Shown piece by piece: positions 29,042 through 48,188 of a DNA stretch of 59,930 nt (its first letter is position 1; each line of letters opens with the position of its first letter). The stretch is from IMG/VR virus record IMGVR_UViG_3300021962_000115, positions 1 to 59,930 of that record; one strand, written 5' to 3'. The translations under genes were made by a program, and so were the position numbers. This DNA comes from a virus. Below the pieces are notes generated by a model. That model saw only the letters and a list, made by a program, of their open reading frames with translations, had not been told where the DNA came from and did not search any database.

Positions 29042-32000
29042 TGGCAAAGATTCAGAATACATCTAAAGAAGTTACTAATACATTTGTCAAGGGTCTAAAT
29101 AAAGATTCTGATCCTTCATTTGTATCAGAAGGGATGTGGATACATGCCCGCAACGCAACTAATAATACAGCAGAAGGTAACTTAGGTACTCTATCAAATG
29201 AAGCATCAAACTACTTATGTGCTTCTGTTGGAACTACTATGCCTTCATTTGGAGCAAATGCTGTAACTGATGTATATATTATTGGAGCTATTCATCTCTT
29301 TTCAGATAAATGGGTAATTTTTTCTGCAGGACATTCATTAACAGGTAAGCCTGTAATGTCTGAGATAGGATTACTAGAAGAATCAAGATGTATATATAGA
29401 CCTATTGTACAAGATTCATGTCTAGGTTTTGATAAAAGAAACCTAGTACTTGGAACATCAAGAGAAAAAGAAGACTGTTCTTGGCAAGTATACTGGGCAG
29501 ATGGTCTGAATCCAGATAGATTTCTAAATGTAGGTGATCCACAAACATGGCCTACAAGTGATTTTCAATGGCAGTTAAATACAATGCCAAATCCAACTCC
29601 TATAGCTTATTCTGCATTAGTAAATAATTATGTAAATAGTGCTGGAGATACAATACTTTGGCCTGGAGTTAGATGGATAGAAGACTGTTCAACTAATTTA
29701 AATTGTACTACATGTACAGATACTAATGAACTTGACTGTGATCATATAAGATTAGCAAGACTTGTTAGTACACCATGTCTTACAATTCAGAGAGGAGAGT
29801 CTGGAGGTAATCTAAGAAATGGAACTTACTTTGCTACTATAGCTTATGCAATAAATGGTCAGAGAGTAACTGATTATTTTTCTCCAAGTAATACTCAACC
29901 CATTTGGTTTCCAGATGATTTACAAGGATCTATTACAATCAATGTAGAAGCTGACTCTGAGAACTTTGATGAGTTTATTTTAGTTGTAGTACAAAATATT
30001 AATCAAGGTACTGTTGCAAAACAGATTGGAACATACTCAACTAAGACAACAAGTATTGAATTAGATCAAATTAAAGATGAACTAATTACAGTTCCTATAG
30101 AACAAATACCAATTATTAATCCTGTATATGAAACATCTGATCAAATGACAGATGTAAACAATTACTTGTTAAGAGTTGGTCCTAGAACTAAATTTGATTT
30201 CAACTATCAACCGCTAGCAAACTTAATTAAGACTAAATGGGTATCTGTAGAATATCCCGCAGACTATTATACTAAAGGTGGCAATAAAGGAAGTTATCTA
30301 AGAGATGAAGTATATGCTTTCTTTATCCGTTGGGTATATGATACAGGTGATAAATCTGCATCTTATCATATTCCTGGTAGACCCCCAAAAGATTATTCAT
30401 ATTTACTTACAGGAACTGCAACTACAATAACAGCTAATGAAGCTAGTAATTCTACACATGATGTAAATTCACTTACAAGTACAGATCAATTATTTGAGAT
30501 GTACAATACTGCAAATACTAATGGCATTCCCTCGCTACTAAATACTACAACTAGTGATGGAGGCACAATTATTGCAACTGGTGAAATGGGTTATTGGGAA
30601 TCTTCAGAAAGATATCCAGATAATCAACCAGAGATATGGAATCCAAGTGAGTATTGTTGGACTGGAGCAGAAGGTCATAGCAGTTATACAGATCCACAGG
30701 GAAATACAATTTATCCTAATGATCTCTGTGGTCAACATATTAGACACCATAAATTTCCAGATAACTATTTAAATAGTAAAACACTTCACTATAAACCTAG
30801 TGCATCTACTGTACCCGGGGACTCAAATAATCTTGACATAAGATTAATGGGTGTAGTATTTCAGAATATAGCATTTCCAAAAGATCAAGATGGTAATGAC
30901 ATTCCAGGAATTGTAGGTTATGAAATCTTAAGAGGTTCAAGAGAAGGTAATAGATCTATTGTTGCTAAGGGTATTCTCAACAATATGAGAACCTATAAAA
31001 TCAAGGGAGATGTAGCAAGAAATAGAACAGGACTATATCCTAACTATCCATTTAACTGTTTACAATCTCCAATGAATACTGGAACAGTTGCTGATGCAAA
31101 CTATCAGTTTAATGATCCATATATTCAACTAGATGAAAACTACTATCAATCTATTCCTGTTGAAATAAATACATTTCACTCACCAGATACAATGTTTAGA
31201 ACTCCATTCTTGGAATCTACTGAACTTAAATTATATGGTGCAGTAAGTGGATATTCAGCACAGAACTTTAAATATCCGGATGAACATCCTAAGTTTAAAC
31301 TACTTAGTGATGCTGGTATGGGATTAGCTTTACTGATTGGTTTTGCAGAAGCTCTTGTTGCTATGACAGGCAAGAAGACAATGAGACAACCTGGTGCTAG
31401 TTTTACCACACAACCTGTACAGAACTTAATTAGTGGTCCTGGTGGTGTAACTATTACAAATCCTGCAGACCCATATTATGAAGCTCCTAATCAAGTTCAA
31501 CAGCAGATTATACAAACAACTGATGTAGGTGATCCAAATGGCTTGAGTTTACCGCCAGTACCTGGTTTACCAGCTCCGTTCTTTACAAAATTAAAGAGTT
31601 ATTTTGGTAATGGAAGCATTATAACTAATGTGGTGGGGGTACCACCCTCCCAAACACTTGACCAAATATTTGAAGAATTCAACTACAATGTTGGTTTTAA
31701 AGTAGGTGGTACATTCACTGCTCCAGATATTGATGTAGAATTATCTGCAGCAACATACCTAGAATCTGCTAATAACCTATCTTTCTTTACAGCTGTAAGT
31801 AATGCACTAGGTGGTTTAAACAAGTTCTTCTATTACTTTTCTTCTGGCTCTGATGCTACATTAGAATTGATTTATGCATTCCTACCATTTGATCAGTATG
31901 CTCTTCAAATGATTGCACATGGTCTATATGATAGTTTCTTATCTCCAAATTATATTGCAAGATTAGGTGAGCCATATGTAACAAGACTTAAAATTGATGA

Positions 32001-34653
32001 TGCATTTTATATTAGAGGTAATATACAAGAAATGCCATATTATCAATCTCAGTGGCCAGCAGTTGTAAATAATAGATACTCAATAAACAATCTTAAAAGA
32101 TCTGACGCAGTTGTATTAAGAACTATGAGTGGTCCTTACTTCCAACCGGCTTATCCAGACGGAGTAGATTTAGGACCTAAGTTTATTAAAAACACAACAG
32201 GAGAGTATTATGATAAATCTCTTGTAACACTGTCCTACTTTAATAACACTGCATCTGGACAAGCTAATGCTTGGGGTAATATTGCAGGTCCATCTTTTGA
32301 TGATAGAGAAATCTCTACTCCATTCTCATTACCAATTGCTAGTCACTATGGTGCAATTAAAATTAGAAAGAGAAACTTATATGGACAATTACAATCTATT
32401 AAACAAATTGTAATTACACCATGTGAGCAGAAACTAAGTGATTCTTTCTATAATAATAAAGTTTGGCCAGAATTGTACACATGTAATGGTACGCAATACT
32501 TGATAAATTGGATAACTCAAACTCCAGTGTTCTTTGGTGGAGATACTTTTGTAAATAGATATACAGAAAAGAATTCAATGTTCTTCTTCTATGATTGGTT
32601 ATATGGCCAACCAGATGGATATGAATTTAATTATCTATTGAGACAAATGATACCAGAACCTAAATTCTGGGTCAACTCAACTAAGTATGACATCTCAGAT
32701 TTTTCAAATGTATTTACTCAGTGGTTTAATGGTGGTGGGGCTCCTGGTACAGGATGGAAACCTACAAACTTCTATCAAATGGACTTTAATAAGTTTGACT
32801 ATAGAGACAATACTGCAGGAGATTATCCAGGAATATTTAGACCAAAGGACTGTTATTTCTACTTAGCTGTTTCTTCTGTAAGAGATTTCTTTGTAGAATC
32901 AGAAGTACTTGTTGATTTTAGAATACAAGGTATTACTGAATCTGAAAAATATTATGACCCATACGGATATACTGATCTATATAGTATGTTTAATATGGAT
33001 CCACAGATTATTACAAGAGGTAATGAATATAGATATGACTATTCACTAAGTATTACTAAAGCATTTAGTCAGTACTTCTCTGCAGGAAATTTGCAGAGTA
33101 GATATTATAATCCTAGTGTTGCTAAGCTCTGCTATACATACTACCCAGATAGAATTATCTATTCTCTACCACAGCAGCAAGAGTCTTTTAAAGATAGCTG
33201 GTTTGTGTATCTAGTAAACAACTATAAAGAATTCCAGCATCAAATATCTGGTGTTAAATCTATTAATAAGAATGGTATTGTAATTACTTTTAAAAATGCT
33301 AGCCCATTAATGCATCAAGGAGTTGATACATTACAAACAGACTTAGGTACTAAAATTACAATTGGGGATGGTGGTCTATTTAGTCAACCAGGACAATCTG
33401 TAATTAATGCTGATGCATCATATGAATATGGTTCATCACAAAATAAACTATCTGTAATCTCTACTCCTGCAGGTATATATTATATATCCCAGAACCAAGC
33501 TAAGATATTTTCATTAGGTTCAGGTTTAAAAGAGATATCACAAATAGGTTTAAAATGGTGGTTTACTAATTTCCTACCATACAAGCTTACTGATGATTTT
33601 CCTGATTATCCTTATCAAGATAATCCTGTATCTGGTATTGGTTGTCAATCCTTATATGATAATGAAAACTCAATAATATACTTTTCTAAGAGAGATTATA
33701 AGTTATTGGACAAATGGAAGAGTCCATTGTTTAATGGTAAGATTCTATACATTCCACTAGTAACTTCAGGAAAAGATAAAGGAACTGGTGATTACTTTCA
33801 GATTCAAAATGCTAATGGTGTTATTCAACCTGGTATATATCAATTAGGTGATCCATTCTTATTTGAAGATGCTTCTTGGACAGTAAGTTTTGACCCTAAA
33901 AATGAATTCTGGATCTCATTTCATGACTGGCATCCTAATCTCAGTATTGGGACTAAAAGTGTTTTCTTAACCACTAAGAAAAATGGAATCTGGAAACACA
34001 ATGATGTATGCAATAGTTACTGTAACTTCTATGGGCAGTCTTATCCATTTGAAATAGAACTACCTATAATAACAGGTCAATCAGTTACTACAGTAAAATC
34101 AATTGAGTACATACTTGAATGTTATAGAAGAAAAAATAATTGTATAGATCAGTTCCATGTACTTGATTACAATTTTGATCATGCCGTTGTATACAATTCT
34201 GAACAAGTTTCTGGATACCTTAATCTAAATATTTTTCCTAAGAATAATGTTACTCTTAGTCAAACATATCCTAAACTAAATCAATCTAACTTACAATCTT
34301 TTGATATTCTATTTAGCAAAGAAGAAAACAAGTATAGATTTAATCAGTTCTGGGATATTACAAGAGACCGTGGAGAATTTCCTATTGGATCAGATTATCC
34401 ACCAACAGGACCAGTTGTTCCAGGAACTACAGTACTACAGGGTAATTATGACCAAGAATCTATCTGGTATACAGAAGCAAATGGATATAAGAGAACATTA
34501 AATCCGGTAAACTTAGATTATAATAAATCTGAACTACAAAGAAAGAAGTTTAGACATTACTTAAATTACTTAACTTTAATTAGAGAAGATAGTACAGATA
34601 CAAATATGATCTTAAAAATAGTTAATAGTAAGAACCAAATATCTCTTAGGTAA
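29041..34653 (+). CDS. Muzzle-like/tail tubular giant protein (crAss-like)
   Basis: A 1870-residue protein that follows three connector genes. The N-terminus contains VKGLNKDSDPSFVSEGMWIH and ARNATNNTAEGNLGTLSNEA (about residues 17-56), the signature of T7 gp12-like tail tubular/stabilisation proteins and of the muzzle protein of crAss-like phages. The rest is largely beta-rich with many Asn, Tyr and Thr. The muzzle forms the distal tail barrel through which DNA and cargo leave. Length is large but in the range expected for this role. No membrane segment is seen. It joins the next gene by TAATG. Confidence 0.65.
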   Translation: MAKIQNTSKEVTNTFVKGLNKDSDPSFVSEGMWIHARNATNNTAEGNLGTLSNEASNYLCASVGTTMPSFGANAVTDVYIIGAIHLFSDKWVIFSAGHSLTGKPVMSEIGLLEESRCIYRPIVQDSCLGFDKRNLVLGTSREKEDCSWQVYWADGLNPDRFLNVGDPQTWPTSDFQWQLNTMPNPTPIAYSALVNNYVNSAGDTILWPGVRWIEDCSTNLNCTTCTDTNELDCDHIRLARLVSTPCLTIQRGESGGNLRNGTYFATIAYAINGQRVTDYFSPSNTQPIWFPDDLQGSITINVEADSENFDEFILVVVQNINQGTVAKQIGTYSTKTTSIELDQIKDELITVPIEQIPIINPVYETSDQMTDVNNYLLRVGPRTKFDFNYQPLANLIKTKWVSVEYPADYYTKGGNKGSYLRDEVYAFFIRWVYDTGDKSASYHIPGRPPKDYSYLLTGTATTITANEASNSTHDVNSLTSTDQLFEMYNTANTNGIPSLLNTTTSDGGTIIATGEMGYWESSERYPDNQPEIWNPSEYCWTGAEGHSSYTDPQGNTIYPNDLCGQHIRHHKFPDNYLNSKTLHYKPSASTVPGDSNNLDIRLMGVVFQNIAFPKDQDGNDIPGIVGYEILRGSREGNRSIVAKGILNNMRTYKIKGDVARNRTGLYPNYPFNCLQSPMNTGTVADANYQFNDPYIQLDENYYQSIPVEINTFHSPDTMFRTPFLESTELKLYGAVSGYSAQNFKYPDEHPKFKLLSDAGMGLALLIGFAEALVAMTGKKTMRQPGASFTTQPVQNLISGPGGVTITNPADPYYEAPNQVQQQIIQTTDVGDPNGLSLPPVPGLPAPFFTKLKSYFGNGSIITNVVGVPPSQTLDQIFEEFNYNVGFKVGGTFTAPDIDVELSAATYLESANNLSFFTAVSNALGGLNKFFYYFSSGSDATLELIYAFLPFDQYALQMIAHGLYDSFLSPNYIARLGEPYVTRLKIDDAFYIRGNIQEMPYYQSQWPAVVNNRYSINNLKRSDAVVLRTMSGPYFQPAYPDGVDLGPKFIKNTTGEYYDKSLVTLSYFNNTASGQANAWGNIAGPSFDDREISTPFSLPIASHYGAIKIRKRNLYGQLQSIKQIVITPCEQKLSDSFYNNKVWPELYTCNGTQYLINWITQTPVFFGGDTFVNRYTEKNSMFFFYDWLYGQPDGYEFNYLLRQMIPEPKFWVNSTKYDISDFSNVFTQWFNGGGAPGTGWKPTNFYQMDFNKFDYRDNTAGDYPGIFRPKDCYFYLAVSSVRDFFVESEVLVDFRIQGITESEKYYDPYGYTDLYSMFNMDPQIITRGNEYRYDYSLSITKAFSQYFSAGNLQSRYYNPSVAKLCYTYYPDRIIYSLPQQQESFKDSWFVYLVNNYKEFQHQISGVKSINKNGIVITFKNASPLMHQGVDTLQTDLGTKITIGDGGLFSQPGQSVINADASYEYGSSQNKLSVISTPAGIYYISQNQAKIFSLGSGLKEISQIGLKWWFTNFLPYKLTDDFPDYPYQDNPVSGIGCQSLYDNENSIIYFSKRDYKLLDKWKSPLFNGKILYIPLVTSGKDKGTGDYFQIQNANGVIQPGIYQLGDPFLFEDASWTVSFDPKNEFWISFHDWHPNLSIGTKSVFLTTKKNGIWKHNDVCNSYCNFYGQSYPFEIELPIITGQSVTTVKSIEYILECYRRKNNCIDQFHVLDYNFDHAVVYNSEQVSGYLNLNIFPKNNVTLSQTYPKLNQSNLQSFDILFSKEENKYRFNQFWDITRDRGEFPIGSDYPPTGPVVPGTTVLQGNYDQESIWYTEANGYKRTLNPVNLDYNKSELQRKKFRHYLNYLTLIREDSTDTNMILKIVNSKNQISLR

Positions 34654-36203
34654 TGAATAATAAGAAAGTACTCAGTAAAGCAGTTAAGAATCTTTCTAAA
34701 ACTAAGAAGGTTGCAAAACCTAAAAATATAATAGAAGATCCTAGAGGTCAGTGGGCACATCCTGGTGAGATAACCAGGATACCATCTGATACTATAACTA
34801 TGCAAGGAGTACCTTATCCTGTTATGGCATACCCTAATATAGGACAACCACAAATGATGTATCCAGGACAAGAGTACTATTTTCCAGGGGCAGCTCATGT
34901 AGATGAGTATCCACAGATGCAAGATGGAGGTATAATTTCTCAAGAAGAAATAGATGCCGCTAATAGAGCTATGATGAAAGCAAGATTAGCATATGCTCAA
35001 ATGCATGGTAATCCTGCTGCTCAAAGAATGGTGGTTGCACCAGATCAACCCTATCAGTTTGATAATGGAATGATAGGTACACACTATATGGCATCTATGG
35101 ACAATTATGCTGTACCACAAATTCAAGGTGTTGATGGACAACTAGTGCTAGGTGATTTTGGTCCAGAGTCTGCAGAAGCTATGAGATTTGATAATCCTGA
35201 AGATGCAATGTACTTTGCAGAAAATTATAAACAGATAACCCCAGATGAATCATATAGACAAGAAGAAGATGCCTATATAGAAACAGAACTTACCCCAGAA
35301 GAAATACAAGAATACGCTAAGGGGGGTTGGGTTGTAGAAGAAGTAGATGAAATTTCTGCACCAACAGATCTTGATCCAAAAACAATGGCTAAGTACAAGA
35401 AAGCACTCAAGAACCAAGAGAATGCTGGAAAGGCTGGTTACAATAAAGCACAGGATAGATGGTATCCACATGTAAGTCCAGAAGGAGGAAAGAAAACAAT
35501 TGGTTATGGACATAAGCTTACAACTAACAATTATGCTAATGGTTTATCAACAGCAGAAGTAGAAAGTTTACTTGACTCAGATATATTAAAACATCAAGCT
35601 ATTGCTGAAAAACAAGTTGATGAGCAATATGGTAAAGGAACTTTTGATAAACTTCCACAAGATTCTCAGATGCTTCTTGTAGACTATGCTTATAACCTAG
35701 GTACATTAAAAGAATTTCCAAAGTTTGTTAATGGTGTAGTTACAGGTGACAAAGAAAAAATGTTGGCTGAGCATAAAAGATATAGTGGTTCTAGTCCTAT
35801 TACTAGAAGGAACCAATGGACTGTTGATACAATAAATACTATGGATACTACTATTCCATCAAAAATAAACTTACCTGTCCCTACTAATTCTACACAAACA
35901 ACTAAATCTAATAAGGATAGATGGGGAAGATCTCCTAATACTATTTGGTATGGTTTTAATCCTGAGACTAAATTATATGAACAAAAAGGTTTGCTCTGGC
36001 CTCAATATGGAGATCCAGGCCCTGGTATTGGAGGACCACTACCAGGATCTTATATATCCCCAGGACAAAGACTAAGAGAATATCAAGAAGGATTAAAGAA
36101 ACAATCTAAAGGTGGTCAGTATAATATTGGAGATGAGGTTGAGCTTACAGAAGCTGAAGTAAAGAGATTAAGAAGTTTAGGTTATACCATTGAAAAAATC
36201 TAG
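34653..36203 (+). CDS. Virion lysozyme (GH24-like) with tagged ends
   Basis: The 516-residue protein has a lysozyme domain at about residues 245-400. Glu256, Asp268 in QDRWYPHVSPEGGKK and Thr282 in TIGYGHKL are the likely catalytic set of T4-type muramidases, with slightly longer spacing than in T4 lysozyme. It should open peptidoglycan for tail penetration, distinct from the endolysin at 4841. The N-terminal 200 residues are Pro/Met/Tyr-rich. A motif at 211-231 (LTPEEIQEYAKGGWVVEEV core) aligns with the C-terminal motif at 496-516. A DRWGR module at 422-447 recurs in the 1551-residue protein. The muzzle upstream supports a virion location. Confidence 0.65.
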   Translation: MNNKKVLSKAVKNLSKTKKVAKPKNIIEDPRGQWAHPGEITRIPSDTITMQGVPYPVMAYPNIGQPQMMYPGQEYYFPGAAHVDEYPQMQDGGIISQEEIDAANRAMMKARLAYAQMHGNPAAQRMVVAPDQPYQFDNGMIGTHYMASMDNYAVPQIQGVDGQLVLGDFGPESAEAMRFDNPEDAMYFAENYKQITPDESYRQEEDAYIETELTPEEIQEYAKGGWVVEEVDEISAPTDLDPKTMAKYKKALKNQENAGKAGYNKAQDRWYPHVSPEGGKKTIGYGHKLTTNNYANGLSTAEVESLLDSDILKHQAIAEKQVDEQYGKGTFDKLPQDSQMLLVDYAYNLGTLKEFPKFVNGVVTGDKEKMLAEHKRYSGSSPITRRNQWTVDTINTMDTTIPSKINLPVPTNSTQTTKSNKDRWGRSPNTIWYGFNPETKLYEQKGLLWPQYGDPGPGIGGPLPGSYISPGQRLREYQEGLKKQSKGGQYNIGDEVELTEAEVKRLRSLGYTIEKI

Positions 36204-36205
36204 TC

Positions 36206-38314
36206 ATGGCTAAATATAGAATTACAAGTACTCCAGATGATTCTTTCAAAAAAGGTGGAGAACGTAAAAAGAAAAAGAGGAATAATGACAAAGACTACCG
36301 ACATATTCCTATAACTCCAGAAATGCAAGCAGAGATGCCTGCAGATGAGTGGGGTCAATACATTCAAGAAGTACCTGAAGTATATACTACTAGAACTAGA
36401 GAACAACAGGATATTAGAAATGCTCTTGACTATCAACAAAGAATGGCTGAATTATATCCGGGTAGACCTACTCAGTCAGATGCAATACAACCTGCTGATT
36501 GGTTTTGGCAGTTAGGTGCTCTTGGAGCAACAGGAGCTGCAGGAGATCTATTAAGTGCAGGAGAAACTTTAGGTACTAAAGCACTACCTTATATTGAAAG
36601 TGCTCTTAATACTTCAATACCTAAAATGAGTTCAATTCCTGGAGCCACTTTTGGTAATGCTATGGGAGCTTATTTTGCAGGAGATGCTATAGTTAATAGA
36701 TTATACCCATCTGCAGGTAAAATACAAGAAGGTGAATATGGTGAAGCTGCAACGGATATAGGAACAGGTTTATTAGACCTATGGGGAGCTAACATGTTAA
36801 GTCCTCTATATAAAGGAGCAAAAGCTACAGCATCTGAACTTAGTAAGTTTATAGGTGCTGAGGATTTTAGTATATTTCCTAAACAACCTATTCCGCTTGA
36901 AGGCTATGATCTATCAAAAGGAAGAGCAACTAAATCACTTATTCCTGAAGTAGTTGAAGAACAAAAAGTTATAGAGCCTTGGAGAATGCAACCTATGCCA
37001 GGATTACATTTAAAGTCTACAATGACAACTAATCCAAAAGGTTTACATACACAAGTAGCAAAAGATGGAACTATAAATGTAGAAAATGCTTTAAAATTTA
37101 TTAAAAATAATGAAGGACAAGACAAGTATAATCTAGTAACTAAAGCCTTAGGACAAAACCTACCTAAGAAAATGGACTATAATCAATTTAGAAATCTCAT
37201 ACAAAAAGAATTAGTACCATTAGAAAAAACTGTAGGTGTCCGAGATAATAGTGTATATGGTTTACAAAGACTTGGTTATACTGTTGAACAGCCTAATGTA
37301 ACTACATATTATTCAGATGGTGAAGCAAAAATTATAGAAAATCAAACTATTCTATTAGGTAATAGAAATCAATTTGGTAGGGGATCTACTGCACATGGTA
37401 ATCCTGATGAAACTTTAGGTCATATTCATTTCTTTAGAGATTCTGATACTCCAGATGCATTAACTATTTCACAAATACAATCAGATGCATTTCAAGGTAC
37501 ACATCGGTCATCAATAAGAACTAAAGAACAGGCTGAATCTTCTCTAAGAGAAACGGAAAAACATTATGAAAGATTAAAAAAATCCTTTGACCAACTTACT
37601 CTAGGACCTGATGGTTTCTATCAATTACCCGATGGACAAGTAATGCGTAAAGATATGGCTGATGCTATGCTTAAATCACAAGCAGAAACAATTAATCTAA
37701 TGAAATCAGATTTAAAAAACTTTGATCAAAGACAACTATTAGATAAAAATCATCAAGAAAGATACTTACAAGAAATTGTACAATATGCTGCAGAAAGAGG
37801 TGATGTTAACAGAATTAAATTACCTACTTCAGAAACAGCAGCTAAAATACAAAAATATTCAAAAGAGACATGGGATGATATTGAGGATTTTAGAAGCTAT
37901 ATGCAAGCAGAATATGACCTTGATCAAGCACAACAATTTGGAGACCCTGAAATTATTAAGTCAGCACAACAAAAAGTTGATAAAATTAAACAACAACAAA
38001 TAGATAGAGTACCAGATTATAGATCAAAACATAAAACTATTCTTAAAAAATATAATGAATTACCTAAAATAATTAAGAAATTATATGGTACAGAACCTAA
38101 AATAGTAACAGATAGTAAAGGTAATACGTGGTATGAACTTAATATTCCATATGAATTTAAAGAGGGACCAGCAGAAATAAAAGCATTTAAGAGTGGTGGA
38201 CAATATGCAGCTGCTCTACCACAAGAACAAGATAGAGGTATTGTCACTTCTCTAACAGATGCTGAAATCAAACAATATATAAAAGATGGTTATATTGTAG
38301 AAGAGATCAAGTGA
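36206..38314 (+). CDS. Putative ejected protein with polyvalent-type domain and C-terminal tag
   Basis: The 702-residue protein begins with MAKYRITSTPDDSFKKGG followed by a very basic stretch. Residues about 95-185 are Gly/Ala-rich and hydrophobic (LGALGATGAAGDLLSAGE), possibly membrane-active. Residues about 400-680 match a domain I recall from very large phage and integrative-element polyvalent proteins: GHIHFFRDSD, LTISQIQSDAFQG, YLQEIVQYAAERGD, LPTSETAAKI and GNTWYELNIP. The activity of that domain is not established. The C-terminus (681-701) carries the LTDAEIKQYIKDGYIVEEI motif shared with two neighbours. It probably enters the host with the DNA. Confidence 0.55.
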   Translation: MAKYRITSTPDDSFKKGGERKKKKRNNDKDYRHIPITPEMQAEMPADEWGQYIQEVPEVYTTRTREQQDIRNALDYQQRMAELYPGRPTQSDAIQPADWFWQLGALGATGAAGDLLSAGETLGTKALPYIESALNTSIPKMSSIPGATFGNAMGAYFAGDAIVNRLYPSAGKIQEGEYGEAATDIGTGLLDLWGANMLSPLYKGAKATASELSKFIGAEDFSIFPKQPIPLEGYDLSKGRATKSLIPEVVEEQKVIEPWRMQPMPGLHLKSTMTTNPKGLHTQVAKDGTINVENALKFIKNNEGQDKYNLVTKALGQNLPKKMDYNQFRNLIQKELVPLEKTVGVRDNSVYGLQRLGYTVEQPNVTTYYSDGEAKIIENQTILLGNRNQFGRGSTAHGNPDETLGHIHFFRDSDTPDALTISQIQSDAFQGTHRSSIRTKEQAESSLRETEKHYERLKKSFDQLTLGPDGFYQLPDGQVMRKDMADAMLKSQAETINLMKSDLKNFDQRQLLDKNHQERYLQEIVQYAAERGDVNRIKLPTSETAAKIQKYSKETWDDIEDFRSYMQAEYDLDQAQQFGDPEIIKSAQQKVDKIKQQQIDRVPDYRSKHKTILKKYNELPKIIKKLYGTEPKIVTDSKGNTWYELNIPYEFKEGPAEIKAFKSGGQYAAALPQEQDRGIVTSLTDAEIKQYIKDGYIVEEIK

Positions 38315-38315
38315 A

Positions 38316-38336
38316 TGTAAACTAAATAAGTTTACA
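38316..38336 (+). terminator. Hairpin after the 702-aa gene (weak terminator)
   Basis: A perfect 8-bp stem TGTAAACT (38316-38323) with AGTTTACA (38329-38336) and a 5-nt loop starts 1 bp after the stop. The T content that follows is broken (GTTTAAATTTT), so termination may be partial. Confidence 0.5.
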
Positions 38337-38350
38337 GTTTAAATTTTAAT

Positions 38351-38370
38351 TTACTATATTTAGTATATAC
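38351..38370 (+). promoter_or_regulatory. Promoter-like element before the 1551-aa gene
   Basis: TATATTTA at 38355-38362, in the context ACTATATTTAGTATATAC, matches the recurrent box. The ATG is at 38379. Confidence 0.45.
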
Positions 38371-38378
38371 ACTGTGTA

Positions 38379-41300
38379 ATGAAGAAAAAAGTAAGAATTT
38401 ATAAAGCCGAAGATGGAAAGGGGAAGTTTGTAAATAAGACTTCTAAGTTTCTTGCTAAAGCTCAAGAAGGTGGTATGCCAGATATGTCAAGGCTTACATA
38501 TCCTGGATCACAACCCACATCACAAGAAGATCAAACTTCTCAATTAATACAACTTGTTGTTAGTGATATTACTTCAAATGTTCCAAGAGAAAAGACCCTT
38601 ACAAAGTTATCTAATGTAATGGGTATTCCATTTGATAAAGCTACAGAACTTTATATGGCTATTGCTGAACAAATTACACAGCAGATTGAACAACAGGACA
38701 ACCAGGACTATGAAGAAGAAACAGGAAGTCCAAGAGAGAAAGAAGAAGCTCTTCCTGTTGATGCAGTAATTACACAAGAGCCTGAGCAAGATTATGACTA
38801 TGATCTAAATGATGATACTGGAGCTGAAATTGCAATGGCAGATTCTGGAGAGCCTGATGTACTTGATGAAGCTCTTGACCCACTAGAAGGAATGTACCAG
38901 TACGGTGGTATGACAGGAGATGAATATACCTTTGCATACCCTGAAGTAGATAATGAACAATATAATAATCAGGTGTCACAGATGGCATGGCCAGGATCAG
39001 ATGAATCTTCTGAAGAAAATCCATATGCCTCTGACTATTATGGTGATGCTATACTAGAGAATACTGGTTATGCAAAAGGTGGTTCTTATAAGAAAAGTAA
39101 AGCCAAGTATGTAAGTTCTGTAATGAAGCTTCTCAAAAAGCAAATGGGTGGAGATTCTGAAGATATACCAAACCCTAATAATGGAGATCCCACAGGTACT
39201 AACTTTAGAGAAAATAGATTAAAATCATTTACAAGTAGTGTTAAAAATACAGCGCAACAACAAGCACTTAAAGAACAACTTGAACAACAGTATGATCAAA
39301 TGATGCAAGAGGGTGGTCAATCTGGAGATTTTGAAAATCCAATGCACCACTTAAATTTATATTCTCAAGCAACTAGAGGTATATTCAATAATCCAATGAA
39401 CCAAATGGTTCAAGCCAGAAGAGGTATGAACGTTGATCCAGATCTTCCAGTGCAGAATCAAGATCTATTAAATTTACCAAGAGGATTCTCTAGAAGAACT
39501 GTAAGAAGATTTGGAAATATTCCTAATCTCAGAGAAGTTGATGTAAGAAGATCTGGTTTATTTGGTCCAAAGGAATATACAATGTACTTTGAACCATCCC
39601 CACTCCAACAAATAAGTAACCCTCTCTCGGCAGAGATATATGGTTATGGAGCAAACCAATCAGCTGCAAGAAAACAAACTAGAACTTTTGAGGCTACAAA
39701 AACATATACTAATCTTCTTGAAGACAAAGCAGAAAAAGAAGCAGAGAAAGAAGTAAAAGAACAAGTATCTGAAGAACAAAAAGCAGTAGAAGCTGCAACT
39801 CAACAAGGCAGTACAGCGCAAGGATCAACAGCACAAGGATCTAATAAGAGAACTCCTGTTAGTACTCAAAGTTATGCAGCAGAAATACAAAGAGATAAGT
39901 GGGGCAGGCCTGAAGGTGATAAGTGGTATAACTTTAATCCAGATACAAAACAATTTGAAGGTGAGTCACTACCATTCCAAAGAGTAGAAGGAAGTGATTT
40001 TTTATATGGGCGCACACCAGAAGGACAGTGGGCATATCTAAATCCTGCTGCCGCTGCATATTATCCTGTTAGTGAGGGCAGTCCTAATATGAAAGCTCTA
40101 AAAGCAGGTCAATCTAAATCTGCATCATTTGTTACTTTAGATTCTAAACCAGGATACTACTATAGAGTAAGAAATGATGGTGCATATGTAAAGTTCCAGG
40201 GGGACCCTCTAACACATACTGCAAGTACTAAACCACTTGAAGTTATTACATCAGGAGACAAGAGACATGCTTACATTAAAAAGAATGCTAAAGCTAGTTC
40301 CAATGTATTACCTGCAGTTATGTTTGGGCAGCCTTCTGCTAGTCCTAGTTCTAATAGTTTAGACATCTATAATCAGATGGTAAATAAGATGTATGGACAA
40401 CATCCTGCTCTTAAACAACTCATAACACAGCAGTATGGTGGGAATATAGAAAATCCATTTGCCAATCCAATGGAACCCCTACAAAAGTTTATAGGTGGTG
40501 GTTATGATCCTACAGAAGCTCAGATAGATTATTCAGATTCTATTGATACTTCAGATGCATATTTCCAAAGAGGTGGTAACTTTATAAAGAACTTTGTTCC
40601 CGCTAATCTTACTGATGGTAACAGACAAGCTGTTGTACAAAAGATCTATAATCCTGTAACTGGAGAGACTAGACAACAATTTGTTCCAGGTCCTGGAAAT
40701 CAACTTGCAGCAATTGATGTAAGAAAAACAGGTTTAACAGGTAGACCTAAGAAGTATACTGTTTATTATGGTGCTGCAGGTGATCCAAGATATTCTAACT
40801 TGATTACTATGGATGGAGCTAAAGGTGAATCAGGTAAAAAAGCTTCTGGTAATAAAACTACATCAAGTAAATCTGAAAGACAACAAGCACTAGAAAATGC
40901 TGGATATGGTGATAGAACTGATGTAACTGGTCTTAAAGGTAAATCTAAAAGAGCAATTAGACAGGGAGAAAGACAAAGAGATAGAGATCTTAAAAAACTC
41001 TATAAAGAAGATCCTACTAATGTAGAGTTTGAAAAAACTAATATCAATGCTCCATATGATTACCAGATAGAGCAACCTATGCAGATCAGGAGTGCACAAG
41101 ATGAACTAAACAAACTTATCAAACAAGGTCCAGAACAACTAGTAACACAAAAACAAATTGATGATCTTAGATCTCAAGTTAACATGGACTGGTTTCCGCA
41201 GAAGGACAAAGAGTTGGATGATTATTTTATGGATCTATTTAATAATCATAAGGAATATAGAGATCTTGCCATAGAAAATAATTTTAAGGATCCTGATGGA

Positions 41301-43034
41301 AAGACTACAGATCAAGAAAGAAACATAGAAAGAGCTTCGACACTTATACCTAATTATGATTTAGATTGGGTCTTCTCTAATACAAAATCAGATGATATCA
41401 ATAAACGTTATGATCTTAATGTAGATCCAAATAACCTTCTAGATCCTAGACTCCAAGTTGAAGGTATAGATGCAAACAGAAGAGTAGAAGATTGGTACAG
41501 AAAACCCAAAGAAGTATCTGATGATCCAATGCTTCAAGATAATGGGGATGATGCGGCATGGGGACTACCAACTTCACCAGAAGAAAGAGAAGCGGCTGCT
41601 GCAGCTGCACTACAGGATAATGTTGCATATGAACTTCCTCAGGGAGACTATAATGAAGATTCTGGATGGGGTGAAGTAGGTGCTAGATCTTTCCAAGATT
41701 ATGTACCAGGAATTGGACCAGCTGCGGATGAAACAGATCAATTTCCTTCATTTGAAGAACAATACCTACAAGAAGGTTATCAACCTGCATATTCACAAGA
41801 TATGCTTGATAGAGCATCTGGTTTAAGAATGGCCCAACCTGAGCAACCAATGACTGATATGGGTGCATGGTCAGGTATGGGATCTTCAGCAGATATAGTT
41901 TCTCCTGGTGTAAATCCATTTGAGCTACCTACAATGATTGATCCAGGTGGAATACCTAGGTACTTAAATGACTACTACTCACCATTTGAGCAGCCAACAA
42001 GATCTGCAAGACCTACTGCACCTACTGCACCTACTCTAAACCAACTCAGAGCACAACAGCAATCTAGACCAAACGCAAATAAACAATACACTTATAATGT
42101 AGATACGTCTGGTGCTACTAAAGATTCAGACTATATTGCTGCAATGCAAAGAGCTCGTCAAGATGGTGTAGTTACAAATGCAGAAGCAAATGCTGCACTA
42201 AGAGGTTATAAGCAGAAGATAGCTGAAAAGGAAAAAATTAAAGTTGCATCACAAGCTCAGAGAACTATTGATCAAATTATGAATAGTAGTTCTTCTAAAT
42301 CTGAAAAGATAGCGGCTAGAGATAAAGTTCTTGCTCAACTGCAACAGAGATTTGAGATAATTGATAATAGTGTAGGTAGCCGCAAATATGGTGGTGCACT
42401 GAGTAGATTTGTAGATGGTGGTAATAACCAACCCTTTACAGGTGAAAACCCTGTGGCTTATACAAACAATCCTATGATGCAAGGTAAATCTGATTTAGAT
42501 CTTATCACTCTCAATCAAGGTATACAAGGAGCACAAGGATCAGTGAACTGGGGCAGTATGGCTTCAAATCCTGCAAATGCAACATATACAGGTGCACAAC
42601 CAGAACAATATAAAATTGATCCAAATCAAAGAGAAGAGTATCAAGTTGCTAAAACTTATTCTGAACCAATGGCTGTTGATATTAAAGTTCCTATGTCACA
42701 AGCACAAAGAGAAGCTAGTTTAATTACAGGTAATGCACTTATGAGAGGTGTAACTGGTATCAAGAATAGAAGAACAGATGCTCAACAAATGGAAGGTTTC
42801 TATGATAATTTCAGTGCTGATAATCTTTATGCTTCAGATCCAAGTAGAGACCGTGGAGACTATGCAGAATCAGGACTATATAGACCAGATGAACAAGGTC
42901 AAGTATGGAACAGTAGATCTGCTCAATACGGTGGTTATATAGATGATGACTTTGAAGATGGAGAAGAAGTTTATATGACTGATGAAGAGATCAAAGAGTA
43001 CATGGCAAATGGTGGCCAAATAGAATTTATTTAA
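38379..43034 (+). CDS. Giant putative capsid-cargo protein with repeated double-glycine motifs
   Basis: The 1551-residue protein starts MKKKVRIYKAEDGKGK and has long acidic, Gln-rich and disordered parts. Double-glycine signatures recur throughout: QEGGMP, QYGGMT, AKGGSY, QMGGDS, QEGGQS, QYGGNI, QRGGNF, KYGGAL and QYGGYI. Two internal copies of a DVR[RK][ST]GL module lie at about residues 388 and 780, and a DKWGR module at 506-533 matches one in the lysozyme protein. The C-terminus (1531-1551) carries the MTDEEIKEYMANGGQIEFI motif. There is no enzyme motif. Position after muzzle and lysozyme suggests an internal, ejected or scaffold-like virion protein. Confidence 0.55.
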   Translation: MKKKVRIYKAEDGKGKFVNKTSKFLAKAQEGGMPDMSRLTYPGSQPTSQEDQTSQLIQLVVSDITSNVPREKTLTKLSNVMGIPFDKATELYMAIAEQITQQIEQQDNQDYEEETGSPREKEEALPVDAVITQEPEQDYDYDLNDDTGAEIAMADSGEPDVLDEALDPLEGMYQYGGMTGDEYTFAYPEVDNEQYNNQVSQMAWPGSDESSEENPYASDYYGDAILENTGYAKGGSYKKSKAKYVSSVMKLLKKQMGGDSEDIPNPNNGDPTGTNFRENRLKSFTSSVKNTAQQQALKEQLEQQYDQMMQEGGQSGDFENPMHHLNLYSQATRGIFNNPMNQMVQARRGMNVDPDLPVQNQDLLNLPRGFSRRTVRRFGNIPNLREVDVRRSGLFGPKEYTMYFEPSPLQQISNPLSAEIYGYGANQSAARKQTRTFEATKTYTNLLEDKAEKEAEKEVKEQVSEEQKAVEAATQQGSTAQGSTAQGSNKRTPVSTQSYAAEIQRDKWGRPEGDKWYNFNPDTKQFEGESLPFQRVEGSDFLYGRTPEGQWAYLNPAAAAYYPVSEGSPNMKALKAGQSKSASFVTLDSKPGYYYRVRNDGAYVKFQGDPLTHTASTKPLEVITSGDKRHAYIKKNAKASSNVLPAVMFGQPSASPSSNSLDIYNQMVNKMYGQHPALKQLITQQYGGNIENPFANPMEPLQKFIGGGYDPTEAQIDYSDSIDTSDAYFQRGGNFIKNFVPANLTDGNRQAVVQKIYNPVTGETRQQFVPGPGNQLAAIDVRKTGLTGRPKKYTVYYGAAGDPRYSNLITMDGAKGESGKKASGNKTTSSKSERQQALENAGYGDRTDVTGLKGKSKRAIRQGERQRDRDLKKLYKEDPTNVEFEKTNINAPYDYQIEQPMQIRSAQDELNKLIKQGPEQLVTQKQIDDLRSQVNMDWFPQKDKELDDYFMDLFNNHKEYRDLAIENNFKDPDGKTTDQERNIERASTLIPNYDLDWVFSNTKSDDINKRYDLNVDPNNLLDPRLQVEGIDANRRVEDWYRKPKEVSDDPMLQDNGDDAAWGLPTSPEEREAAAAAALQDNVAYELPQGDYNEDSGWGEVGARSFQDYVPGIGPAADETDQFPSFEEQYLQEGYQPAYSQDMLDRASGLRMAQPEQPMTDMGAWSGMGSSADIVSPGVNPFELPTMIDPGGIPRYLNDYYSPFEQPTRSARPTAPTAPTLNQLRAQQQSRPNANKQYTYNVDTSGATKDSDYIAAMQRARQDGVVTNAEANAALRGYKQKIAEKEKIKVASQAQRTIDQIMNSSSSKSEKIAARDKVLAQLQQRFEIIDNSVGSRKYGGALSRFVDGGNNQPFTGENPVAYTNNPMMQGKSDLDLITLNQGIQGAQGSVNWGSMASNPANATYTGAQPEQYKIDPNQREEYQVAKTYSEPMAVDIKVPMSQAQREASLITGNALMRGVTGIKNRRTDAQQMEGFYDNFSADNLYASDPSRDRGDYAESGLYRPDEQGQVWNSRSAQYGGYIDDDFEDGEEVYMTDEEIKEYMANGGQIEFI

Positions 43035-43043
43035 CTTTATATC

Positions 43044-45215
43044 ATGTTAAGAAAAGTAAGAATTATTAAGTCAGCTCCTAAAGCAAGAACCGGGTACCAA
43101 GTACAAGGTTCTCTTGCTAATGATGTACCTGCATTTGGTGGAGCAGACTATAATGCCTACATAGGAACCCCTAATCCTGAAGTATCTAAAACTATTACTG
43201 CAGTACCTAGAAGTATTGCAAACTTAGAAGCTGAAGGTGGAGAGACTGTAGTAGGTAATCTTGATGGTAGTAAGATGCCTTCATTTAAAACTATTAAGGG
43301 ACCAAGGCATTCTAATGGTGGTGTACCACTTTTATTACCTGAAGATAGTTTTATCTTTAGTGATACTAAATCTATGAAGATTACAGATCCAAAAATGTTA
43401 AGCATGTTTGGACTATCTCCTAAGAAAGGTGGGTATACTCCTGCAGAGATATCTAAAAGATATGATATAAACAACTATAGAAAAATTCTTCAAGATCCTA
43501 ATTCTGATCACATTTCTAGAAAGACAGCAGAGATGATGATTAAGAACTATGTAATGAAACTTGGAGCTCTTGCTATTGCTCAAGAATCTAAGAAAGCATT
43601 TCCACAGGGAATACCTTTAATTGCAAGACCTTATATGGAAGCTATGGGACTTAGAGATGAAGATCTTATACCAGAGCTTGCACAAGAGGAACAGCAAGAA
43701 AGTGCGCAGTATGAGCAACAAGAAACACCACAATATGAGCAAGAAGAGATGATGTCTCAGGAGATGCCAATGGGTGAGTACGGTATGTCATTAGGTGCAG
43801 GTATGTCTCAAAACTACATGGGTCGTAAAAGAAGAATGTATGCTTATGGAGGTGATCTACCTATTGCTGAAGATGGCACACCAAGACCTAAAACAGCTAC
43901 AAAAGTAGATCCAGAAGCTTACAAGAAGAGTACCTGGGAAACCAGAAGTGATGCACAAGGTGAGTACAAGTACAATCAAACAAGAGGTCAAGTAGAAGGT
44001 AGAAAAGAATACGATAGACAACAAGCACCATCTGGAGGTTCTAATCCTAATCTAATTTCTGATCTATGTAGAAATATGAAAACTAAGGGTAGTAGACACT
44101 ATGGTAAAACTGCTGAGGAAGTTCTTGCATATGCTGGATATAAACCGGGTTCATCCCTATATAGTAAACACTTGGTTACTCTTAAAGCTTGTGAACAAAA
44201 AGGTGAAGTGATTGAAGAGCAAGCTATTTATACAGAACAACCACCATCAACAGATTGTCCATGTAAAGATAAAGATGGAAATGTAATACCTGGTAAGTTT
44301 GCAAAGAGAGATGAGAATGGTAAATGTCTTCCTTGTCTAGAAGAATGTGAATGTAAAAAATCTGATGGTTCTACATATACTGTTGGTAAAGATGCTAATG
44401 GTAATTGTGAGAAATGTGAAGAAGAAATTGATACAGAAACAAATACTGTAGTAGATACACCGCAATCAGATCCTGAATGGTGGTTACAAGATACTGTAAA
44501 TGCTGCAGGTGCTTTTGGTGATCTAATGAGTGTTAGAAAACAAATGCCATGGGAAGCAAGAGTTGATCTTGAAGAACCAAGACCTACATTCTTAGATATT
44601 ACATCAGAAGCAAATCAATTAAATGCATTAGCTAATGTTAATGCTCAAGCTTTAGCTAGTACAGCTAGTCCTCAAACTACTGCTGTAAATTTATTAGCAA
44701 ATCAAGGTAAATTAGCGGATCAAGTTGCAGCAATGCAATCTAGATATAACAATCAAAATGTAAATATTGCTAATCAATTTGAAGGAACACAAGTTGGTAT
44801 CAGAAACCAAGAACAACTTATGAACCAACAAATGTCTAATAGACTCTATGATAAGAATGTTATTGCAAATCAGCAATTCCAAAATGCTAAACGTCAGGGA
44901 AGAGCTAACATGGCACAAGCATACAATACTGCAGTAACTAATAAATGGAAAGCAGATGCTGAGAACCAACTTAGAGAAGATGTTAAACTACATCCTGGAG
45001 TAGGTGGTAGAGTAGAGATGCAACCAACTGCTAAGAACCCACAAGCTACTAAGCCAGAAATGACAATGGAAGAATTTTATGAAGCTAATAAGGGAATGCC
45101 TGAAGGAGTACTTAAAGAAATGATGAGAATTAAGTATGGTAAGAAGTATGGTGGACCTACTAGTTTTAGAGATGGAGGCTATATTTATACAGTCTTTCCA
45201 ATTGTAACACTCTAG
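43044..45215 (+). CDS. Putative virion cargo protein with Cys repeats
   Basis: The 723-residue protein starts MLRKVRIIKSAPKARTGYQV, similar to the start of the preceding gene product. Residues about 60-200 hold a module with EAEGGETVVGN, GPRHSNGGVPLLLPEDSFIF and DTKSMKI that I recall from other environmental phage proteins. Residues about 400-465 contain two tandem Cys motifs (DCPCKDKDG...GKCLPC and CECKKSDG...GNCEKC), possibly zinc-binding. The region 510-660 is Gln/Asn/Ala-rich and helical. Double-glycine signatures occur at AYGGDL, KYGGPT and RDGGYI. Its end differs from the tagged neighbours, finishing YIYTVFPIVTL. Confidence 0.5.
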   Translation: MLRKVRIIKSAPKARTGYQVQGSLANDVPAFGGADYNAYIGTPNPEVSKTITAVPRSIANLEAEGGETVVGNLDGSKMPSFKTIKGPRHSNGGVPLLLPEDSFIFSDTKSMKITDPKMLSMFGLSPKKGGYTPAEISKRYDINNYRKILQDPNSDHISRKTAEMMIKNYVMKLGALAIAQESKKAFPQGIPLIARPYMEAMGLRDEDLIPELAQEEQQESAQYEQQETPQYEQEEMMSQEMPMGEYGMSLGAGMSQNYMGRKRRMYAYGGDLPIAEDGTPRPKTATKVDPEAYKKSTWETRSDAQGEYKYNQTRGQVEGRKEYDRQQAPSGGSNPNLISDLCRNMKTKGSRHYGKTAEEVLAYAGYKPGSSLYSKHLVTLKACEQKGEVIEEQAIYTEQPPSTDCPCKDKDGNVIPGKFAKRDENGKCLPCLEECECKKSDGSTYTVGKDANGNCEKCEEEIDTETNTVVDTPQSDPEWWLQDTVNAAGAFGDLMSVRKQMPWEARVDLEEPRPTFLDITSEANQLNALANVNAQALASTASPQTTAVNLLANQGKLADQVAAMQSRYNNQNVNIANQFEGTQVGIRNQEQLMNQQMSNRLYDKNVIANQQFQNAKRQGRANMAQAYNTAVTNKWKADAENQLREDVKLHPGVGGRVEMQPTAKNPQATKPEMTMEEFYEANKGMPEGVLKEMMRIKYGKKYGGPTSFRDGGYIYTVFPIVTL

Positions 45216-45281: not shown

Positions 45282-48188
45282 ATGGCAACCTACTTACAGG
45301 GAGTTACAGATTACATACCACAGTTTCAACCGTTTCAACCGGATCTGAACTTCTATGATAATGTAATGCAAACAAAGCAGACCCAGTATGATAATAACTG
45401 GAAAGCTTTGAATACTATGTATAGTAAATACTACTATGCTGATCTCACACGTGATAACAATGTTAAAGCAAGGGATTCTTTCATTAAAGATGCTCAGTTT
45501 AACTTAAAGAGAATCTCTCAGTTAGATCTATCTCTTGAACAAAATGTTCAACAAGCAGCTCAAGTATTTAGACCGTTCTATGAAAACCAAGACCTAATGA
45601 AAGATATGGCTTGGACAAAAACTAAGAACACTGAACTTGCAGCAGCAGATAGTTTTAGAAAATCTCTTGATCCTGAAATGAATAAAAAGTACTGGGATAC
45701 AGGAGTACGTGAAATTAATTATCTAACAGAAGAATTTAAGAATGCTACTAATGAAGAAGCATTAGGCTTTAGTAATGTAAGATATACGCCAAATATAGAT
45801 ATCATGGGCAGAGCTCAGGAAATTGCAAAAGAATTTGGTGACATTCAAACTGTTAAGTTTACTGAAGATAAGAGATGGATTGTAAAGACTAAGAATGGAG
45901 AACAACTTGAAGAACCACTTCAAAAGTTATTTGAAGCTAGATTAGGTAATGATCCATCTGTACAATCATACTTTAAAACACAAGCATACGTTCAGAGAAA
46001 GGACTATGCTATGGCAAATGCTGCACAATTCAATGGTGATAAAAATGCTGCTGAAATGAAATACCTTCAAGATAAGTTTAATATCATGAAGATTCAAAAT
46101 CAGAATGCTTACAAACAAATGAAGGAGCAGAATGCTGTATATGATAATAAGATAGCAGATATCCAATCTCAAATAGATAAGGGTAATAAAGATCCACTTC
46201 TACAAAAAGCACTGGATCAATATACTATGAACAAGGATATCAATAATGAAGTACTAACTAGGATTGAAAAAGAGAATGCTTTGATGGAAACAAATCAAGC
46301 AGATCCAAATAATCCTTATGGTGATATCCAATCATTTAGATACAAAGTTGATTCAGGTGTTGCATCTCAACTAATGAGCAAATCTTTGGGTGAAGCAGCT
46401 CACACATATGCATTTAGAAACTATTTTGAAGATCTTGATGCTAATCCATATCAAGTTAACCAAGAGAAGTTCCAACAGAATATGGCTCTTGCTAATCAAA
46501 AATATCAAAATGATAGAAAGCTTGCTGAATATAAAGCTGGCCTAAAAGAAAAACTTGATGATAGAAAGTACAAACTTGATGCTGGTACACACTTCTTAAA
46601 TGAAAAAGGTGAACTAGTTGAGAAGTTTGATCAAAATCACTTCTTTACTGAATCTAATGACTCAGGTACAGCAACTGATAAAACAAATGTAAGATCTACA
46701 GCTGAGTATGTACAAAAGAGATATACAGAAAACTATGCTAGTCCATACTTTCAGACTATGATGAGAGTTCTTACTGAAGCTACTGATAGTGATACAGGAA
46801 AGAAATTAACTCAAAAACAGATCAACTATATTATAAATGGTGATGAGAATAAGTACGCTGATTTAAATAGATGGGCTAATAAGATACAAACAAATGCCAA
46901 TTCATTCCTTACTGATAAAGTTGGTGAAGGTTGGATGAAAGCTATTAACTATAGATTTAAAAACTTTGTGGCTCAGAATCCACAATTAACTACTATTAAA
47001 GATAATCAAGAAGCCCTAGCTACAACAGCAACTAAGTTTGATGACTATTTATTATTCTTAGGTGAGAGTAAGAAGTTTGAGAAAACTCTTACATCTGGTG
47101 TAGAAAAAGAACTTGCAAAACAAGGATTTAAGCATGCTAAGTACTTGTATGATGAAAATGGTAATATAAGAAGTAAAGAAGCATTTTTTAGAGCTCTACC
47201 AAAAGGTGCAAATCTAGATGCTGAAGGAAAAACTTCAGGAACACCCTTATATGTAAGTAGTGGTTCTCCATTAACAATGGGAACATCTGGTGATACATAT
47301 GTTAGTGTACCAAAGAATTACTATGAAAATCTTATAAGTGCTGCAAGATCTATTGTAACAGATCAAAATAAAGTATCTAAAATTACAGGAAGACAATCTA
47401 TACCAGGATTAGAAAAAATATCTGATGGTACAGGTATGTTTGGAAAATCAATGTTTACAACAGTTAATCCAAAAAGTTCTTGGGGTACTTATCACTATGG
47501 ACAAGTATTAAATAACTTAAGATCACAAGACTTAGGTTCTAATAATGTTAAGATTAGTGTAGGTGGTCTGAGTGTTACCGGATTAAAAAATAGTTTATCT
47601 GATGAACAAGGTCTAGCATTTCTACGAGAACTACAAAGAGAAATGGATAAAGGCACCAAAGGGTTTAACTTCAAAATGGGAGTCGCACCTATTGCTCTAA
47701 ATAATGCAAATAAATCAGCGTACATATTCCAGGTTTCACCTGACTTAATCAAAAGTCTTACAGGTAAACTTGATGATGATGGTAATCTTACAGGAGGTAT
47801 ATTTACTCCAACACAGGCATCAGAAGTTATGACAAATGGTGTATCATTTATAATGGACAAAAATATGTTCAATTCTGATATGTATAACAGTATGTTTGCT
47901 GATCCATTAGCTGCTTATGTAGATAGAAATAAAAAGTATAGTTGGTCTGATCCTGTAGATCCAAGATATACAATTAATATTAGTAAATCTGGAATTGGAG
48001 GAGATGGTAGCTATCAAATAGATAATTCAATGCCAGTATTTGATGAAAAAACAAATACATGGACAGTTGCTAGCTTTACTAATATTGTAGATAATGCTAA
48101 ACAAAATTTAAGTGATCTTAGAGATTCAACAATCCAACAAGGTAATCAAGTAAAACTTTATAACAATAACCTCCTTAATGGCTACTGA
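45282..48188 (+). CDS. Putative internal/cargo virion protein
   Basis: The 968-residue protein starts MATYLQGVTDYIPQFQPFQP, then contains NFYDNVMQTKQTQYDNNW, YYADLTRDNNVKARDSFIKD and LDLSLEQNVQQAAQVF. This opening is one I associate with conserved internal or cargo proteins of Bacteroidota podoviruses. The middle (about residues 260-460) is highly helical with coiled coil, and the C-terminal third is mixed. No enzyme motif or membrane segment is seen. Its stop overlaps the start of the 2226-residue gene by 11 bp, suggesting translational coupling and a shared role in ejection. Confidence 0.55.
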   Translation: MATYLQGVTDYIPQFQPFQPDLNFYDNVMQTKQTQYDNNWKALNTMYSKYYYADLTRDNNVKARDSFIKDAQFNLKRISQLDLSLEQNVQQAAQVFRPFYENQDLMKDMAWTKTKNTELAAADSFRKSLDPEMNKKYWDTGVREINYLTEEFKNATNEEALGFSNVRYTPNIDIMGRAQEIAKEFGDIQTVKFTEDKRWIVKTKNGEQLEEPLQKLFEARLGNDPSVQSYFKTQAYVQRKDYAMANAAQFNGDKNAAEMKYLQDKFNIMKIQNQNAYKQMKEQNAVYDNKIADIQSQIDKGNKDPLLQKALDQYTMNKDINNEVLTRIEKENALMETNQADPNNPYGDIQSFRYKVDSGVASQLMSKSLGEAAHTYAFRNYFEDLDANPYQVNQEKFQQNMALANQKYQNDRKLAEYKAGLKEKLDDRKYKLDAGTHFLNEKGELVEKFDQNHFFTESNDSGTATDKTNVRSTAEYVQKRYTENYASPYFQTMMRVLTEATDSDTGKKLTQKQINYIINGDENKYADLNRWANKIQTNANSFLTDKVGEGWMKAINYRFKNFVAQNPQLTTIKDNQEALATTATKFDDYLLFLGESKKFEKTLTSGVEKELAKQGFKHAKYLYDENGNIRSKEAFFRALPKGANLDAEGKTSGTPLYVSSGSPLTMGTSGDTYVSVPKNYYENLISAARSIVTDQNKVSKITGRQSIPGLEKISDGTGMFGKSMFTTVNPKSSWGTYHYGQVLNNLRSQDLGSNNVKISVGGLSVTGLKNSLSDEQGLAFLRELQREMDKGTKGFNFKMGVAPIALNNANKSAYIFQVSPDLIKSLTGKLDDDGNLTGGIFTPTQASEVMTNGVSFIMDKNMFNSDMYNSMFADPLAAYVDRNKKYSWSDPVDPRYTINISKSGIGGDGSYQIDNSMPVFDEKTNTWTVASFTNIVDNAKQNLSDLRDSTIQQGNQVKLYNNNLLNGY

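Follow-up and report, generated by a model that had tools for sequence, protein, structure and literature searches.

A portable C-terminal motif on probable cargo proteins of crAss-like phages as a putative docking or loading signal

The gene cluster and its four motif copies

The window, i.e., the whole stretch of DNA that was analysed, comprises the 59,930 bases of an IMG/VR virus record, in which genes for terminase, portal, and major head protein were recognised by PHROGs matches. Judged by its characteristic muzzle and RNA-polymerase-related cargo genes, which lie in the usual order, the window phage appears to be crAss-like (Crassvirales or a close relative). Relatives of its muzzle-like protein were found by profile search in csAssE-Sib and Cellulophaga phi4:1; the profile did not extend to the muzzle of crAss001. 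The features discussed here, all on the + strand, are the following.

29041..34653, +, muzzle-like virion structural protein (by sequence comparison), upstream border of the cluster
34653..36203, +, 516-aa tagged protein, with A-module, B module, internal motif, GH24 lysozyme, WGR module, and terminal motif
34734..34931, +, A-module (residues 28-93 of the 516-aa protein), the conserved N-terminal module of the first cargo gene
35283..35345, +, internal motif copy of the 516-aa protein (residues 211-231), GYIVEE type, lying after module B and ahead of the lysozyme domain
36138..36200, +, C-terminal motif copy of the 516-aa protein, LGYTFEKI type, resembling the end of DUF7210 below the cut-off
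36206..38314, +, 702-aa tagged protein, no function assigned
38246..38308, +, C-terminal motif copy of the 702-aa protein, GYIVEE type, one residue short of the end
38379..43034, +, 1551-aa tagged protein, orthologous in relatives, no function assigned
42969..43031, +, C-terminal motif copy of the 1551-aa protein, GGEVEYI type
43044..45215, +, 723-aa protein without the motif, downstream border of the cluster
48178..54858, +, 2226-aa protein related to crAss001 gp47 (E 3.6e-23), context only, 3' of the tagged genes

The first-pass annotation had described a motif, [LM]TxxE[IV]xx[YL]xxxGxx[IV]Ex[IV], that closes three successive proteins and occurs once internally, and this description holds. 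The four DNA intervals encode the claimed peptides in frame, and these are the only four matches of the pattern in the six frames of the window. The 516-, 702-, and 1551-aa proteins have 0, 1, and 0 residues left between the motif and the stop, respectively, the 702-aa protein carrying one extra K; the internal copy precedes the lysozyme catalytic domain and ends 285 residues before the stop of the 516-aa protein. As to extent, the core is present as described, but the true element is longer, most copies having a GG and a gap of variable length before the helix. The statement that the three proteins otherwise differ was nearly right, except that the 516- and 1551-aa proteins have a WGR...WYxFNPxTK stretch in common. 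In its longer form, WGR...WYxFNPxTKxxE, this repeated stretch lies at window positions 35859-36002 and 39840-39980, and it recurs in one relative (L042).

Several neighbouring proteins deserve brief comment. The 702-aa protein has no relatives in viral contigs or named phages, and a polyvalent-protein domain suspected in it by eye received no support from Pfam. The window lysozyme weakly resembles the lysozymes of phages 21 and T4 by fold. Homology of the 723-aa protein to crAss001 gp45 was considered and dropped, no match being detected, nor was one found between the 723-aa family and gp46. In 723-like proteins, a GG-containing, hydrophobic C-terminal signature, GG-x-YVYxxxxFPFxx, stands in place of the tag, both in the window (45150-45212) and in relatives.

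Distribution and anatomy of the motif

Relatives were collected as 29 loci fetched by the 516-aa protein and 65 by the muzzle protein, and a motif model was grown from the four window copies. The resulting profile HMM, a test proposed along with the motif, gave 102 matches in 783 distinct proteins and none in the reversed or shuffled versions. Relative to the muzzle gene, the matches were one-sided: none of the 605 proteins encoded upstream carried one, as against 92 of the 227 encoded downstream. Across 30 whole records, all motif matches with E < 0.001 fell within the cargo cluster by coordinates, circular permutation being allowed for. Hits at random positions in unrelated proteins, which would speak against a tag, were not seen; the copies lie in one cluster, an outcome that favours a tag. 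A held-out set, fetched via the N-terminal A-module and consisting of 35 contigs without sequence in common with the earlier set, contained 57 motif copies, 41 of them no more than three residues from the C-terminus and 16 internal (reversed control, 0). When the HMM was built from the relatives' copies with the window copies excluded, three window copies were recovered (E 8.5e-11, 1.6e-9, and 7e-9), and the copy at the C-terminus of the 516-aa protein was matched weakly (E 0.1); a 48-row model including the window copies found all four at E 3e-12 to 1e-14.

A resemblance by chance among short, common helix-cap sequences might be suspected, given that the element is short and that its profile matches solved structures only in weak fragments, as chance would give. 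This explanation is hardly credible against 102 matches versus none in reversed or shuffled proteins and 57 versus none in the held-out contigs, and a chance origin is ruled out by the reversed and shuffled controls.

The slot between the muzzle and the 723-like gene yielded 102 distinct genes, of which 76 score as motif-terminated; of the 26 that do not, at least three are motif-terminated by eye. A genome has one to five copies, usually on two or three successive genes, and some proteins have an internal copy only. Among the first cargo genes of one subgroup (L023, L025, L026, L031, L132, L141, and L162), basic tails such as KKHGIKVTYKK or SSQRIDYNHKRNK replace the tag. A second terminal signature, KLxKFI, closes some cargo proteins (L004, L017, L076, L078, L114, and L156), directly after the motif in L076 and L078.

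Of the named phages, the Leptolyngbya phage Lbo-JY46 (L098, PP438436.1) was the only one in which the motif was found (E 1.1e-12). This cultured phage of a cyanobacterium encodes a muzzle homologue, has the A-module in the gene after the muzzle, and carries the tag on one protein, the product of a 674-aa gene (PP438436, 79333-81357). No motif was present in the examined stretches of crAss001, Cellulophaga phi4:1, Flavobacterium Fpv1, and csAssE-Sib, so the motif is not a general requirement of cargo loading. Short-peptide tblastn against named phages returned nothing or a single match at E 6, there was no convincing PHROG family for the element, and no described family matched it, nor did the literature searched, of which coverage was partial, contain a description of the motif. 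The closest Pfam entry is DUF7210 (PF23843), whose positions 15-37 of 38 match copies of the LGYTFEKI type. It weakly matched 8 of 48 motif copies (best E 2.9e-5); membership was rejected, the best score being 21.9 bits against a curated cut-off of 27, with 0 of 17 records above it.

The core comprises 19 residues, a helix and a strand, and the element as a whole about 19-30. In the alignment of relatives' copies, the G after the helix and the E in the last strand are invariant or nearly so, and there is strong preference for hydrophobic-T/S/D-x-x-E at the helix start, I or L, Y or F, and then [YG]x[VI]E. Read from sequence, the element is predicted to open with a linker that contains GG; a short strand often comes next, followed by an amphipathic helix with caps, and [YG]x[VI]Ex[ILV] forms the closing strand. 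In our reading, the conserved residues represent a helix capping pattern. The first-pass annotation had suggested looking for a common fold with AlphaFold. Single chains were folded, the 1551-aa protein being represented by its 263-residue end, and a short helix did appear in both models (residues 500-508 of the 516-aa protein and 247-255 of the 1551-aa end), although the models were poor overall, with mean pLDDT of 60 and 54, respectively. In both, the helix comes after a long low-confidence stretch. Given the quality of these models, the element may be a small helical island past a probably flexible linker.

The signature of an N- and C-capped helix, together with the resemblance of one variant to part of the small DUF7210 domain, could also mean that the element just closes or stabilises the end of a module, spreads with modules, and binds nothing. 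We regard such a structural cap as improbable, because the same cap would hardly be needed by unrelated domains, and in one gene cluster only, and because AlphaFold, albeit in poor models, places the element after low-confidence linkers and not packed against a domain.

Modules, variants, and lineage signal

Portability is most evident from what precedes the motif. By BLAST, the 200 residues before the 123 terminal copies represent up to 37 unrelated contexts, a number that is an upper estimate because of low-complexity linkers. Among 38 tagged or cluster proteins, Pfam (E 0.001) recognised eight SET domains, four GH24 lysozymes, and one each of Amidase_2, SLT, Phage_lysozyme2, Amidase_6, and GNAT, so that peptidoglycan hydrolases of several families are represented among the tagged proteins. 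In the following probable cargo proteins of relatives, SET domains (lysine methyltransferase fold) exceed the Pfam cut-off.

L032, 9404-12940
L054, 15523-19917
L050, 15499-20106
L093, 15553-18411
L094, 15502-19503

The A-module is highly conserved and is present in 278 IMG/VR contigs as well as in Cellulophaga phi4:1 gp040; no case was confirmed in prokaryotic genomes. In L079, module B and its motif form the very C-terminus; in the window and in L032, both are internal. The lysozyme is found at many positions among relatives. Sequence comparison thus portrays the cargo proteins of relatives as shuffled assemblies of modules, and internal copies are best read as probable module ends later joined to a further domain, since the module B motif is terminal in L079 and internal elsewhere and since the lysozyme position varies.

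Internal copies at module boundaries are likewise what would be expected if the GG-containing element marked cut sites of a polyprotein cargo. GG in a [YFM]Q-rich context is frequent in the cargo proteins, and polyvalent proteins are thought to be processed by their own metallopeptidase domain (PMC5512222). Most held-out copies, however, are already at a natural C-terminus, where a cut after them releases nothing, and conservation peaks in the helix and strand rather than at one bond; short of a systematic search, no protease was recognised either. Proteolytic processing is therefore very unlikely. As a separate observation on the composition of these proteins, GG pairs in cargo proteins of the window and its relatives prefer [YFM]Q before and [YF][IV] after them, a pervasive short pattern.

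Recent duplication or concerted evolution of the copies was rejected, as motif pairs within a genome are no more alike than pairs between genomes (56.0 vs 55.1); the two copies of L015 are an exception, being alike at 22 of 31 residues. The proposal that the motif is a portable tag is well supported by sequence comparison: it forms the exact C-terminus of most cluster genes, has unrelated domains before it, occurs nowhere else in the 30 records, and travels with modules.

The 190 distinct copies fall into three types, all of which are present in the window. Copies of the GYIVEE type are internal in 64 cases, terminal in 40, and cut in one; the LGYTFEKI type, which comprises two clusters, is terminal in 35 of 36; and the GGEVEYI type is terminal in all 49 cases, each time in the gene directly before the 723-like gene. 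Copies of this last type belong to an orthologous gene with a conserved tail, and their fixed position is therefore partly inheritance. Neighbouring genes carry different variants. Among the variable genes, the motifs tend to be more alike the more identical the muzzles are, and this holds even for genes in which the 250 residues before the motif are unrelated (rho 0.32, permutation p ~0.001). This relationship fits a partner in the phage backbone, but it would also be expected, and to that extent counts against docking, if the end of a gene stayed while the preceding domain was replaced.

Proposed role and comparison with known systems

We lean, with some reserve, towards the view that the element serves the probable ejection (cargo) proteins of a clade of crAss-like phages as a portable recognition peptide at the C-terminus and would dock these proteins to a shared phage partner; as a best inference, it is a putative loading or docking signal. 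This partner, itself encoded by the phage, could be the portal, tail barrel, muzzle, scaffold, or shell, and docking would take place during assembly; different variants would mark different docking sites, and lysozymes, SET-domain proteins, and other enzymes could be exchanged without loss of packaging. The tagged proteins are placed in the virion, presumptively, because their neighbours and modules are related to virion proteins, namely crAss001 gp47 and phi4:1 gp040; the latter has the A-module with which the 516-aa protein begins, and its annotation lists it as a virion protein seen by MS/MS.

The arrangement of the copies invites two further interpretations. Neighbouring genes may use a combinatorial system of C-terminal addresses, in which their variants set docking sites or the order of ejection and enzymes are exchanged while addresses are kept; we put this forward tentatively, as a rather doubtful elaboration. 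Alternatively, successive tags might bind each other or one hub and so build an ejection complex, with no docking to portal, tail, or shell. Such cargo-to-cargo docking, which can be likened to matched docking domains, would accommodate the one to five copies per genome, their location on successive genes, the differing variants of neighbours, and the fixed position of one variant. A single pattern running through all variants fits one kind of partner equally well, however, and we consider cargo-to-cargo docking unlikely. Among the rivals of docking to a shared phage partner, it ranks as the likeliest, followed by a structural cap and then by proteolytic processing.

Encapsulin shells and phage capsids have a common fold, HK97 (PMC7355545), a relation that is also general knowledge. 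Encapsulins load unrelated cargo enzymes encoded near the shell gene, which have in common a short conserved cargo-loading peptide (CLP), usually C-terminal (PMC7355545). The phage element resembles the CLP in being a short peptide at the terminus of several unrelated cargo proteins. It differs in length, with about 19-30 residues against about 10, and in occurring inside proteins as well; furthermore, shell binding and sufficiency for loading have been shown for the CLP, whereas the phage element is a candidate for such a role. In phage T4, different ejected proteins all carry a short peptide, the capsid targeting sequence (CTS), by which they are brought into the prohead (PMC7411985). The present element is similarly common to different probable ejected proteins, yet the CTS is N-terminal and is cut off by the prohead protease, whereas the element is C-terminal or internal. 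The best reading, by analogy, is that it may work like the encapsulin CLP or the T4 CTS, and membership in neither class is claimed.

The cargo protein in the head and tail of crAss001 virions is estimated at ~5.5 MDa, and gp47, one of the cargo proteins, was detected in virions by mass spectrometry; no loading signal is described in the available part of that work (PMC10172136). Beside the crAss001 muzzle, a helical stretch of 14 residues was left unassigned (PMC10172136). Its gp45-gp47 occupy the same slot after the muzzle as the window cargo, with gp47 related to the 2226-aa protein; unlike the window, crAss001 is without any motif copy. A terminal peptide common to exchangeable enzymes provides a short, testable candidate for a loading signal in phages related to crAss001. 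If it is one, the last 20 residues of a protein would suffice to predict that it is injected, also in metagenomic phages that lack annotation, and the peptide might serve as a laboratory tool for bringing foreign proteins into phage particles.

Polyvalent proteins of phages and conjugative elements are large, modular, and probably injected, with exchangeable enzyme domains and genes near late genes, and the available part of their description mentions no common terminal peptide (PMC5512222). The tagged proteins are likewise large, modular, probable cargo with exchangeable enzyme domains. According to Pfam, the three tagged proteins of the window contain no known polyvalent domain families but a lysozyme, and most tagged proteins combine at most one recognised enzyme domain with uncharacterised modules.
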